Virus record (IMG/VR): IMGVR_UViG_3300027851_000102
Span: 1 to 28,286 of that record
Direction: 5' to 3' (one strand)
Length of the DNA stretch: 28,286 bases
From: a virus
Shown: piece by piece, positions 794-25,967 of the stretch
Position numbering within the stretch: the stretch's first letter is position 1
Layout: each line of letters starts with the position of its first letter
Made by a program: the position numbers and the translations under genes
Notes under the pieces: generated by a model
What the model was told of the DNA's origin: nothing
The model's input: only the letters and a program-made list of their open reading frames with translations
Databases searched by the model: none

Positions 794-806
794 TAAAGTG
801 ATGTGG
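794..806 (+). promoter_or_regulatory. Repressor promoter -10, leaderless start
   Basis: TAAAGT at 794-799 is followed by 6 nt and a GTG at 806, so transcription would begin at or next to the start codon. No good -35 is visible 16-19 bp upstream, and no Shine-Dalgarno is present. Confidence 0.5.
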
Positions 807-1213
807 TGCCCAAGAAAATCAAGCCAGTTACCTTTGCCCAACATCTCGGCGCTGCGATCAATGCTGTGATGACGGTTCAAGGCCGCACACAGGAAGAGAT
901 GGTGGAGGCGACCGGGATCACCGCCCAGACCTTCGGGCGTCGTATTCGTGGAGAGGCCCCACTGTTGGTCAGCGAATTGGTCAAGATCGGGGAAGTGTTA
1001 GGCGTGAGGCCTAGCGAGATTCTTGATCGCGCGATCGCCAACTACGGCGGAATTGAACGACTGATGTCGGAGGCGACCGATACACCTGACGAGATCGCCA
1101 CGAAACGTAAGCAGAACGAGGCCCAGTCAATGACGACCGAGCAGATTCAGGAACTAGATGCCGCCGCAGAGGACAACCCCGAAGAACGGGAAGACGAGCC
1201 CGACCTTCCCTAG
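806..1213 (+). CDS. Lysogeny repressor, XRE/Cro-C1 HTH family (135 aa)
   Basis: The N-terminal half is a classic XRE-type DNA-binding domain at about residues 8-70, with the HTH signature QEEMVEATGITAQTFGRRIRGE at its core and the follow-on helices LLVSELVKIGEVLGVRPSEIL. The C-terminal 60 residues are acidic and Gln/Glu-rich (EQIQELDAAAEDNPEEREDE), likely a flexible tail or oligomerisation region. There is no S24 autoprotease domain, so RecA-stimulated self-cleavage is not expected. Inactivation may instead involve the ImmA-like product encoded immediately downstream and overlapping by 56 nt. The start is GTG 806 by leaderless geometry; GTG 803 is an alternative one codon upstream. It is divergent from the excisionase operon, the standard layout of an immunity switch. 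Confidence 0.85.
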   Translation: MPKKIKPVTFAQHLGAAINAVMTVQGRTQEEMVEATGITAQTFGRRIRGEAPLLVSELVKIGEVLGVRPSEILDRAIANYGGIERLMSEATDTPDEIATKRKQNEAQSMTTEQIQELDAAAEDNPEEREDEPDLP

Positions 1214-1583: not shown

Positions 1584-2742
1584 ACAGGGTCGAGAATTGC
1601 TCCATCGCTCCGAGCAGTCGAACGTTATTGCTGCGGGTTTTGTAGGCCCTGGTCATGGTGCGAGTGGAGTGACCGACGATCTCGGAGATGAGGTCTTCGG
1701 GTACGCCGGCCAGATAGAGAAGGTCAACAGCCGTGTGGCGTAAGTCGTGGATGGTGACGTTCTTCTGGATGCCTAGTTCGGCTAGAAGTGTGCGCCAGTT
1801 CTCCCAGTCCTTTGCGGGGTCCAGCGGCTTCCCATTCGAGGTGAACAGGAGTCCCCAACGGTTGGGTTCCGCTGCAGCTATGTGTCGCTCAAGGATCGTT
1901 TTCAGGGGGTCGATGAGCGGGATGATTCGCCAACCTTTCGAGGACTTCGGGCGGGTCAGGTACAGGCCACCGGAGAGGTGACGGTACTCGAAGTCAGCGG
2001 GTACCTTGGGTACACCGATCGTCTCGGTGAGGGGGAGTCGCTGGATCTGCCAGGACAGGTCGATGACATCCGATACCCGGTCCTGTTCGATTCCGATCGT
2101 TTCGCCCTGGCGCGCACCTGTGAGGATCGCGGTGGCCCACCGTGCGCCCATCTCTGGGTCCTTGGTTACGTGTTCGAGCAACGCCAACGCTTCGTCCAGG
2201 TTGAGGGCTTCACGGGGCGCTGACGACTTCCTGGGGGCATTGGTGAGCTCGGCAGGGTTACGACCGATACGCCCTTCCCTGACGGCGACCTTGAGTGACA
2301 CGGACATGGCCCGGTGGGCCAGGAGTGCGTACGTGGATGACAGCCCAGAATCGGTGATCCGGTCGTGGACTCGGCGGATGTGGGCGGCGGTCAGCTTCTC
2401 GAGCTTCACCTTCCCGATCTCGGGGATGATGTGCTGAAACACGACGGACTTGTAACCCCGGAGAGTGTTGGGCCGTACCTCTTTACTCGCGATCTGTTCG
2501 AACCAGTAGGAGAACCACTGGTCGACCGTCTGCCCCTTGGTGGGAAGGTCGCCGCGTTTCTTCAGTTCAGAGCGCAGGGATTCCATCTCGGCGATCAGGG
2601 CAACCTTGTCTTTACGACGTCGGGTGATCTTCCTGCGGTCTCCATCGTGTGACGGTAGTTCGATGGTTCCCACCCAGTATTTGAGGGGCTGCTTCCTATC
2701 CTTGGGTACTCGGTAGATGCCACCTTCACCCTTGCCGCGCAT
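1531..2742 (-). CDS. int: Phage integrase, tyrosine recombinase (403 aa)
   Basis: Catalyses site-specific recombination between attP and the host attB. Domains: an N-terminal arm-type-binding region (about 1-65, beta-rich AP2-like start GEGGIYRV), a SAM-like core-binding domain (about 70-165), and a C-terminal catalytic domain (about 175-385). The catalytic residues are visible: R211 in TGARQGE, K266 in RPKSSKG, H332 and R335 in HDLRHT, H358 in VGHST and the nucleophile Y367 in RAYKTR. AAGGAG 6 nt upstream fixes the ATG at 2742. The attP lies directly upstream, so integrase bound there could also affect its own transcription. The last 17 codons overlap immA convergently. Full length, with no sign of damage. 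Confidence 0.95.
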   Translation of the reverse strand: MRGKGEGGIYRVPKDRKQPLKYWVGTIELPSHDGDRRKITRRRKDKVALIAEMESLRSELKKRGDLPTKGQTVDQWFSYWFEQIASKEVRPNTLRGYKSVVFQHIIPEIGKVKLEKLTAAHIRRVHDRITDSGLSSTYALLAHRAMSVSLKVAVREGRIGRNPAELTNAPRKSSAPREALNLDEALALLEHVTKDPEMGARWATAILTGARQGETIGIEQDRVSDVIDLSWQIQRLPLTETIGVPKVPADFEYRHLSGGLYLTRPKSSKGWRIIPLIDPLKTILERHIAAAEPNRWGLLFTSNGKPLDPAKDWENWRTLLAELGIQKNVTIHDLRHTAVDLLYLAGVPEDLISEIVGHSTRTMTRAYKTRSNNVRLLGAMEQFSTLFTLPAGERSDTPAAIEQ

Positions 2743-2900: not shown

Positions 2901-2920
2901 GTGTAGCCGATGGTGTAGCC
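2901..2920 (+). repeat. Left pair of integrase arm-type sites in attP
   Basis: Two direct copies of GTGTAGCC (2901-2908 and 2913-2920), start-to-start spacing 12 bp. The same octamer, orientation and spacing recur to the right of the core at 3100-3119. Paired directly repeated octamers flanking a tRNA-derived core next to an integrase gene are what arm-type binding sites of lambda- and L5-type tyrosine integrases look like. Confidence 0.7.
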
Positions 2921-3011
2921 ATTGCTACGTTTCGGCACGAGCCCGTGTGTGCCCGTATGGACACCTTATATGCCAGAAACGCCAGAATGCAAGCCATTAC
3001 CGACACCGGTA

Positions 3012-3060
3012 GGACGACTTAAAATCGTCCCAGTGTCAGTTCGAACCTGACCGGGGGTAC
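3012..3060 (+). other. attP: attP core: 3' half of a tRNA gene
   Basis: A perfect anticodon arm (stem 3013-3017/3025-3029, loop CTTAAAA at 3018-3024, anticodon TAA), a 5-nt variable region, a perfect T arm (GTCAG/CTGAC around TTCGAAC at 3040-3046), and a 7-nt acceptor 3' strand (CGGGGGT, 3052-3058) with discriminator A. There is no 5' half: no complement to the acceptor strand occurs upstream. A tRNA 3' fragment beside an integrase is the classic overlap region that restores the host tRNA on integration. The TAA anticodon points to tRNA-Leu, but the short variable region is not leucine-like, so host tRNA identity is uncertain. Confidence 0.8.
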
Positions 3061-3099
3061 AAGTAAACACAGGGAAGTGGTCGCCTTACCCGTTGCTCA

Positions 3100-3119
3100 G
3101 TGTAGCCGCGAGTGTAGCC
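3100..3119 (+). repeat. Right pair of integrase arm-type sites in attP
   Basis: Two direct copies of GTGTAGCC (3100-3107 and 3112-3119), 12-bp period, same orientation as the left pair at 2901-2920. Together the four copies bracket the tRNA-derived core and define an attP of about 220 bp (2901-3119). Confidence 0.7.
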
Positions 3120-6671: not shown

Positions 6672-7441
6672 AGCCCTAAAGCCCGCTCAATTGCAGTCAG
6701 CCGATCGTCGGTCTTCTGCTTGTGGACCTGAAACGCAGCCCAAACCGTGCGCGCGGCTTCCACACCAAGAAGACCCATCATTTCGTAGTGAAGTGCTATT
6801 GGCTTTTCGTGATCTTCGTAGACGACGAACTGCCACAGACCGAGCTCGTGAAACCACTCAGCAATCGACCCCCACTCGACCGCGACCTTGTAATGCGGGT
6901 CGTAATCCGGGTTCTCGGGATTGTCCCGCTTGTCGATCTCTGCCTTGTAGTTGAAATGAGTGGAAATTCGCTTGGCATTGAGGAGCGTCTGAATGTCAGG
7001 GCCATCAACATCTGGGCGAAGACTCTTCTTGTTGAGACTTGAGGAGGCATACCCAGCCCGTCCATCATTTCCCCACCACGCGCCACGGCGGGTGTAGGTG
7101 ATGTCGAACCCGTACGCACCAGTCGAGGTAATCCCAGTTGTCCCTACGACGGTGCCCGGTGTTGAAATGGTCCCGCCTGCTGTGACTGTCGTCCCAGCGG
7201 AAACGGAAGTCCCAGCGGAAACGGAAGTCCCAGCGGAAACGGAAGTCCCAGCGGTGACACTCCCCGTCGCATTGACATCCGCCTGCTCCAGTAGGCCGTT
7301 CACCAGATCGGTCAGTGTCGCAAGTGCCTCCGCCGTCTGCGATCCTGTAGGTCGCTCAAGTTCAGAAAGGCGAGCAACAATTCTGCGGATCAACTCGAAC
7401 AGTTGTTTGATCTCGTCACCCGGCGGGGAGGGGTAACCCAT
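6668..7441 (-). CDS. Minor tail protein / fibre with internal repeats (257 aa)
   Basis: The N-terminal 55 residues are helical and heptad-like (IKQLFELIRRIVARLSELE; LTDLVNGLLEQ), a likely trimeric coiled coil. A tandem hexapeptide region follows (about 60-90: AGTSVS repeated three times, then AGTTVT, AGGTIS), typical of a beta-helical or triple-beta fibre shaft. The C-terminal half (about 110-257) is a globular domain rich in Trp, Tyr and charged residues, ending in a long helix that contains a chaperone-like segment (KTDDRLTAIERALGL). Fibres of this plan trimerise through the C-terminal helix. The ATG at 7441 immediately precedes the stop of the upstream tail gene. Confidence 0.7.
   Translation of the reverse strand: MGYPSPPGDEIKQLFELIRRIVARLSELERPTGSQTAEALATLTDLVNGLLEQADVNATGSVTAGTSVSAGTSVSAGTSVSAGTTVTAGGTISTPGTVVGTTGITSTGAYGFDITYTRRGAWWGNDGRAGYASSSLNKKSLRPDVDGPDIQTLLNAKRISTHFNYKAEIDKRDNPENPDYDPHYKVAVEWGSIAEWFHELGLWQFVVYEDHEKPIALHYEMMGLLGVEAARTVWAAFQVHKQKTDDRLTAIERALGL
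7193..7254. repeat. 18-bp tandem repeat in the fibre gene
   Basis: The unit CCCAGCGGAAACGGAAGT occurs three times without a mismatch (7193-7210, 7211-7228, 7229-7246) plus eight bases of a fourth. It is in frame and encodes the hexapeptide repeat of the fibre shaft. Identical copies suggest recent slippage, which would change shaft length without breaking the frame. Confidence 0.9.
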
Positions 7442-25216: not shown

Positions 25217-25402
25217 CTAGTTCTGGCGTGTCGCCGTCTCTCGTTCGGCGCGCTCTAGATCGGGAACGTTGAGCCAGAGGACACGCTGCGGCCTCCATGA
25301 CCTGACCCGACCTTCACGCACCCACCGGTAAATCGTCTCCTTCGATCTGTCGAACCTTTCGGGAGCTTCGTGAACTTGTACCCAGTCTTCGGACCCGCTC
25401 AT
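25217..25402 (-). CDS. Small excisionase/MerR-type HTH protein (61 aa)
   Basis: Reads VQVHEAPERFDRSKETIYRWVREGRVRSWRP: a helix-turn-helix followed by a basic wing, as in excisionase-family DNA-binding proteins (the ETIYRWVREGRV part is diagnostic). ATG 25402 lies 89 nt inside the 3' end of the upstream gene in another frame; no strong ribosome site, so re-initiation is likely. It is the second small HTH gene in this phage, far from attP, so a regulatory role is as likely as excision. Confidence 0.65.
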   Translation of the reverse strand: MSGSEDWVQVHEAPERFDRSKETIYRWVREGRVRSWRPQRVLWLNVPDLERAERETATRQN

Positions 25403-25967
25403 CCTTCTCTTTCTGTTCGGCTTCGATAAGCAATGCCATCCGCGCGAACATCTGCTCATCGATTACGGCACGGCATTCCTTGTTAGTGCATTTCACGGCT
25501 GAGTCGATGAGACGTTCACCTGCAAAGGTCGGTGGGTAGTACCGAAGAGTCAGCATCTGACACGCGGTACAACGGAAGTACCGAACGGATCGCGCTCGTT
25601 CTGACATGGGCCACTTGGCGCAAGCGGTCTCTACTTCCTTCGTCAGCAGGGTGCATATCTCGACGCCCTGTAGGTCATTGGCGGCGTCCTCGAGCTCACG
25701 CCACTTGTTGAGCTCGCTCGACAGTTGACTGATCTCCTCAGCCGCAAGCCACGTCGGCGGGAGTCCCAACGGCATCGTCCCCCGAGATCCGCGACCGCGT
25801 TCCTCGTCTGGGTCGGACCCCATCCGCACATAGCCGGCGACTCTCCACCAGGCCATGTGCGTCGATGCGTTGTGAACTGCCCGCCGAAGCCTGTCGAACT
25901 CTTCGGCCGTCAGGTAGCCGACGTTCCCTTCGGTGTTGTCCCAGTCGAGGTTCGCTGCGTTTGGCAT
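25314..25967 (-). CDS. Zinc-ribbon-containing hypothetical protein (217 aa)
   Basis: The N-terminal 125 residues are mostly helical (YLTAEEFDRLRRAVHNAS; ISQLSSELNKWRELEDAAN) with no known family. At about residues 130-165 a zinc ribbon is clear: CTACQ, then CTNKEC (CxxC...CxxxxC). The C-terminus is charged and basic (EKDERVRRLGTSSRSSRKVRQ), suggesting nucleic-acid binding. ATG 25967 has AAAGGAAG close upstream; an in-frame extension to 26021 is less likely. Several small neighbouring genes also carry Cys pairs, which suggests a set of zinc proteins in the early region. Confidence 0.7.
   Translation of the reverse strand: MPNAANLDWDNTEGNVGYLTAEEFDRLRRAVHNASTHMAWWRVAGYVRMGSDPDEERGRGSRGTMPLGLPPTWLAAEEISQLSSELNKWRELEDAANDLQGVEICTLLTKEVETACAKWPMSERARSVRYFRCTACQMLTLRYYPPTFAGERLIDSAVKCTNKECRAVIDEQMFARMALLIEAEQKEKDERVRRLGTSSRSSRKVRQIEGDDLPVGA

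Follow-up and report, generated by a model that had tools for sequence, protein, structure and literature searches.

The window, by which we mean the whole stretch of 28,286 bases analysed here, encodes a tyrosine integrase, read from 2742 to 1531 on the minus strand with the att site upstream of its start, as the preliminary description had it, and a Cro/C1-type helix-turn-helix protein, which is likely the immunity repressor (Table 1). The integrase is composed of an N-terminal beta-beta-beta-alpha domain (approximately residues 1-63) predicted to bind the arms, a SAM-like core-binding domain and a catalytic domain. The catalytic residues R211, K266, H332, R335, H358 and Y367 are invariant in 33 sequences, so that the active site is intact. 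In the AlphaFold2 model (mean pLDDT 84.7) the N-terminal domain is predicted to consist of strands 9-12, 22-29 and 37-43 and a helix 46-63, placed ahead of the core-binding domain, and the best Foldseek matches of the model are Tn1549 Int and lambda Int. Two small helix-turn-helix-like proteins, with weak or absent family matches, are encoded on the minus strand at 313-594 and 25217-25459; they could be excisionases.

Table 1. Features of the integrase and attachment site region (window coordinates).
Feature	Position	Strand	Basis or remark
Cro/C1-type HTH protein, beside int	803-1213	+	PF13443, phrog_4583
Tyrosine integrase, 403 aa	1531-2742	-	PF14659, PF00589, phrog_1, invariant columns, model, Foldseek
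P arm: P1 (2901-2908) and P2 (2913-2920), two copies of GTGTAGCC, 12-bp pitch	2901-2920	+	Predicted integrase arm-type sites; equivalent position in relatives
Putative integrase promoter, TTGCAT (2992-2987), 16 bp, TATAAG (2970-2965), towards int	2965-2992	-	Hand-found; between P arm and core
Predicted core-type sites and crossover: inverted repeat GGACGA-CTTAAAA-TCGTCC	3012-3030	.	Sequence; homologous junctions in four prophages
Predicted attP core, 3' half of tRNA-Leu(TAA)	3013-3060	+	Genome matches; hybrid tRNA folds
Anticodon stem-loop	3013-3029	+	Within core
T stem-loop	3035-3051	+	Within core
Acceptor strand	3052-3058	+	Within core
A73	3059	+	Within core
P' arm: P'1 (3100-3107) and P'2 (3112-3119)	3100-3119	+	Predicted integrase arm-type sites; P' pairs of relatives share helical phase

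The octamer GTGTAGCC is found four times in exact form, and no further exact copy is present on either strand of the whole 28,286-base window. It is thus not frequent elsewhere in the window, and the preliminary description would have taken frequent occurrence in the phage genome as an argument against an attachment site; the two pairs of identical pitch and orientation which it reported were found at the coordinates it gave. The left and right pairs, taken as 20-mers, are identical in 17 of 20 positions. The description of the arms as symmetric had to be abandoned, since they are direct repeats at unequal distances from the anticodon stem, 92 bp on the left and 70 bp on the right. A scan of the window for 8-mers that form two pairs of the same pitch within 400 bp, at lags of 9-20, returned GTGTAGCC and one coding tandem repeat near 7191; no 8-mer formed an equal-pitch double pair in any of 1000 dinucleotide shuffles of the window. 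The coding repeat (7191-7250) is an 18-bp in-frame tandem repeat (TSVSAGTSVSAGTSVSAGT) inside a structural gene. If one mismatch is tolerated, GTGTAGCC occurs 22 times in the window, which is the number expected by chance and would suit the view that the four octamers are a fortuitous repeat near a tRNA fragment. The exact copies, however, are present only as two pairs, and the shuffle statistics together with the recurrence of such pairs beside related integrases (see below) refute this view, to which we give practically no probability. Comparison of the att region with phage records by blastn gave no match. The titles and abstracts searched held nothing relevant on GTGTAGCC or GGCTACAC as an integrase site, and the arm octamer was not found described in this literature.

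Between the two pairs lies half a tRNA gene, made up of the anticodon stem GACGA/TCGTC, the loop CTTAAAA with the anticodon TAA, the T arm GTCAG-TTCGAAC-CTGAC, the acceptor strand CGGGGGT and A73. The seven-base loop (3018-3024) sits between 6-bp inverted repeats and is presumed to be the overlap region, the cleavage positions being likewise presumptive. A tRNA 3' half had been announced at 3012-3060; it is present, 44 of the 46 bases of 3015-3060 being identical to Microbacterium tRNA-Leu(TAA) through the 3' end of the tRNA, with the correction that the 5' strand of the stem starts at 3013, one base after the announced 3012, which falls outside the 5-bp stem. ARAGORN and Rfam call no tRNA anywhere in the window, as one would expect when only half of the gene is present. 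When the host 5' half is joined to the phage 3' half, ARAGORN calls a tRNA-Leu(taa), which is not called on phage DNA alone; the core corresponds to a host tRNA 3' half and the gene is rebuilt in the hybrid. As both arms flank one half gene, the window carries the unintegrated form of attP.

The exact 23-base 3' part of the core (3037-3059) was found in one genome among those scanned, a Microbacterium MAG, where it lies inside tRNA-Leu(TAA) with two mismatches to the phage core further upstream; in viral contigs the 23 bases are absent. Similar core matches are present in 93 of 198 Microbacterium genomes, and all sixteen that were checked are tRNA-Leu(TAA), including one (L113) with an anticodon stem identical to that of the phage. 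The genome search proposed in the preliminary description for attB and host therefore leads to a match reaching the 3' end of Microbacterium tRNA-Leu(TAA), but not to the exact host: no exact attB was found in the genomes scanned, the best host having two mismatches in 46 bases.

Leucine tRNAs normally have a long variable arm. The Microbacterium tRNA-Leu(TAA) genes used as attB (L309 and L112 of G115; L002:1522-1596) are 74-75 nt long and have a short variable loop. In G115, a genome in one 3.6-Mb contig with 45 tRNA matches, the short tRNA is the sole TAA tRNA, the long type being represented by the leucine tRNAs CAA, GAG, TAG and CAG. TTA codons are rare in the phage (8 across the 22 genes counted), and the integrase gene has one, codon 334 (1741-1743, minus strand), which specifies the leucine of the conserved HDLRH active-site motif. 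This codon fits UUA being read as leucine, and through it translation of the integrase may depend on the very tRNA gene into which the phage inserts.

Integrases 42-73% identical to that of the window are present in viral contigs. Related integrases occur in 21 of 367 Microbacterium genomes, and more are found in genomes from elsewhere in the family and order, in phage records and in 80 viral loci. For the lag statistics thirty related-integrase loci were chosen by protein similarity alone, with the window excluded. An exact 8-mer repeat at lag 11-13 is present in 14 of the 30, whereas 500 shuffles gave 1.46 on average and never more than 6, and other lag classes reach 1-4 in the same loci. 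A scan with the octamer-pair pattern gave 105 viral stretches, which were kept out of these statistics, since many are tandem arrays and many do not adjoin a related integrase. The layout of pair, core and pair with GTGTAGCC is also found around cores of tRNA-Phe, Met, Lys and Thr type (anticodons read from the loops), so that the arm sequence is separable from the target gene; other relatives have the arm variants GTGCAACC, GTGTACCC, GTGTACTC, GTGTATCC and more. No octamer pair was seen in the available DNA of several relatives (e.g. L003, L148 and L151-L153), some of which are cut at the contig or prophage end; L003, with an integrase 73% identical, is available as a stretch without the att region. 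Different arrangements occur at L091:8852-9073, where inverted GTGTAGCC pairs face each other about 200 bp apart, with a weakly similar integrase some 5 kb away, and in L076, L044, L014 and similar viral contigs, where GTGTAGCCNNNN is repeated in tandem (6-8 octamers) and the stretch examined contains no related integrase.

Both ends of a related prophage could be located in four Microbacterium genomes: G205, with tRNA-Met as target and a prophage of 40.3 kb, and G070 (44.5 kb), G085 (41.7 kb) and G268 (51.2 kb), all three with tRNA-Phe as target. At the int end of all four, the P pair comes first, then the core and then host DNA. At the far end ARAGORN calls an intact tRNA, with the P' sites behind it; these can be recognised as a pair in G205, G070 and G268, and G085 has one clear and one degenerate site. 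These junctions are the outcome that would be predicted for the phage of the window. In G070 a third partial tRNA-Phe core (L323, near C13:81476) lies beyond the int-side end of the prophage, at a distance of about 5 kb, and is perhaps the remnant of another integration.

Excisionase sites, like the octamers, are short direct repeats in att regions. The octamers might accordingly be sites of another protein (an excisionase, a repressor or a host bending protein), with the integrase arms elsewhere, and the window does encode excisionase-like small proteins, that at 25217-25459 having a weak match to phrog_66. We consider this very unlikely, as the sites flank the core on either side and are present at each end of the four integrated prophages, the octamer sequence varies between relatives alongside the N-terminal residues of the integrase, and no different repeat lag is prominent in the upstream regions of related integrases.

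On the left, the end of the arm pair lies 81-82, 89-94, 104 or 114 bp from the anticodon stem in 38 loci; the right-hand distance is 58, 68-70, 79, 91-92, 102-105 or 114-116 bp in 18 loci, and 47 bp in L211. The far ends of the four prophages, measured later, gave 47, 104, 93 and 93 bp. On both sides the best period is about 11.5 bp, with a vector strength of 0.83-0.85. Equally strong periodicity was seen in none of 5000 simulated sets and in none of 20000 in a second run; these tests take related loci as independent and so overstate their independence, and a thinned version still holds. Collapsing the right side to distinct distances left the periodicity unchanged. The spacing steps are compatible with one helical turn or with one 12-bp arm unit.

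Since the putative int promoter is placed between P arm and core, int would retain it after integration. A promoter-like match is present at the equivalent position in five relatives (L007, L058, L069, L141 and L144); a stricter consensus scan called no promoter, the putative int promoter included. In the KplE1 prophage the promoter of intS lies within the att region adjoining a tRNA gene and is autoregulated (PMC2951348); the window is similar in having its putative promoter inside the att region, and autoregulation, shown in KplE1, may occur here. With the P pair about 40-60 bp downstream of the putative transcription start, the octamers might even be chiefly leader operators for int autoregulation and not serve in the assembly of a recombination complex. 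This appears most improbable, given that the P' pair is beyond the core, away from int, and that the spacing falls into discrete steps on both sides, a regularity for which autoregulation has no need. One role does not preclude the other.

The arm sites of lambda are unequal in number and orientation, and lambda has no tRNA core. The system of the window has the repeated arm sites on either side of the core that mark the lambda type, and it is like lambda Int and attP (1z1b, 5j0n) in overall protein fold and arm-core-arm logic, with a sequence identity of about 18%. In cluster J mycobacteriophages (Omega, BAKA) a tRNA-Leu core lies between two pairs of direct arm repeats, and a plasmid with int and attP integrates (PMC3706429). 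The window shares with these phages the tRNA-Leu core, the two direct arm repeats per side and the lambda-like tyrosine integrase, and differs in the arm consensus (TGCATACg/tPuPy there, GTGTAGCC here), in the position of attP (3' of int there, 5' of int here) and in the tRNA-Leu gene used; lacking the TGCATAC type of arm, it is of the same kind but not of the same cluster. Cluster K phages (CrimD, Pixie, Boilgate) have arm consensus sequences that differ among near relatives, and integrase N-terminal residues have been proposed as determinants (PMC3203893, PMC10865867). As in cluster K, the core of the window is upstream of int with arm-site pairs on both sides; unlike it, CrimD has P3/P4 inverted relative to P1/P2, and the cluster uses tmRNA or tRNA-Lys targets and 11-bp arm repeats that differ in sequence. 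Mycobacteriophages L5 and Giles, as far as they are cited in PMC3203893, also have paired direct-orientation arms on either side of the core, with extra arm sites in L5 that the window does not have. The pairs flanking a tRNA or tmRNA core known from clusters J and K are thus found in the window, which is another case of the paired direct arms around a tRNA core already described in actinobacteriophages.

Taken together, 2901-3119 is very probably the attP of a temperate actinobacteriophage, likely infecting Microbacterium or a close relative, with the octamers as putative integrase arm sites. The attP proposed in the preliminary description is supported by the match to a tRNA 3' end and by the att junctions in integrated relatives, which are as predicted. 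In the mechanism we propose, an integrase dimer would bind the anticodon-stem inverted repeat of the core and strand exchange would take place in the anticodon loop, while one integrase N-terminal domain would occupy each GTGTAGCC, giving two subunits per arm, and DNA bending would carry the arm-docked subunits to the core. After exchange with the tRNA gene of the host, one end of the prophage would carry int, the P arm and an extra copy of the core, and the other would carry the P' arm behind a tRNA whose 5' half comes from the host and whose 3' half comes from the phage. The int promoter could also be repressed by integrase occupying the P arm.

The natural variation in arm sequence offers a lead on arm recognition. 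When 48 integrases were sorted by arm octamer, in hand-curated motif classes, the alignment columns equal to residues 40, 38, 10 and 26 were among the top by z-score of mutual information. All four integrases with GTGCAACC have Tyr or Phe at 40, in the five with GTGTACTC residue 26 is Arg or Lys and residue 38 is Gln or Thr, and of the five with TACCC-type octamers two have Lys at 40 and three Arg at 26. An independent-pairs test of the residue 26 contrast, on a tree built without the N-terminal domain, gave four pairs in agreement, none opposed and one undecided (p 0.125). The covariation of the octamer with residues 26, 38 and 40 seen in these alignments is suggestive and not significant. 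A tentative arm code, which we hold to be somewhat less probable than its absence, would have residues 26, 38 and 40 (window numbering) set octamer bases 6 and 7: at position 26 a small residue would be paired with GTGTAGCC and Arg or Lys with C at base 6; at position 38 Gln or Thr would be paired with GTGTACTC; and at position 40 Tyr or Phe would be paired with GTGCAACC and Lys with GTGTACCC.

These data provide complete integration-site predictions for an abundant and little-studied integrase family of Microbacterium and related actinobacteria, from which integration vectors might be developed. The natural variation in arm sequence and spacing opens the way to tests of how the N-terminal domain reads the arm and of how strict the helical phase between arm and core is. 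If the arm code is true, arm specificity would evolve apart from the tRNA target, and the spacing between arm and core would shift only by whole helical turns.
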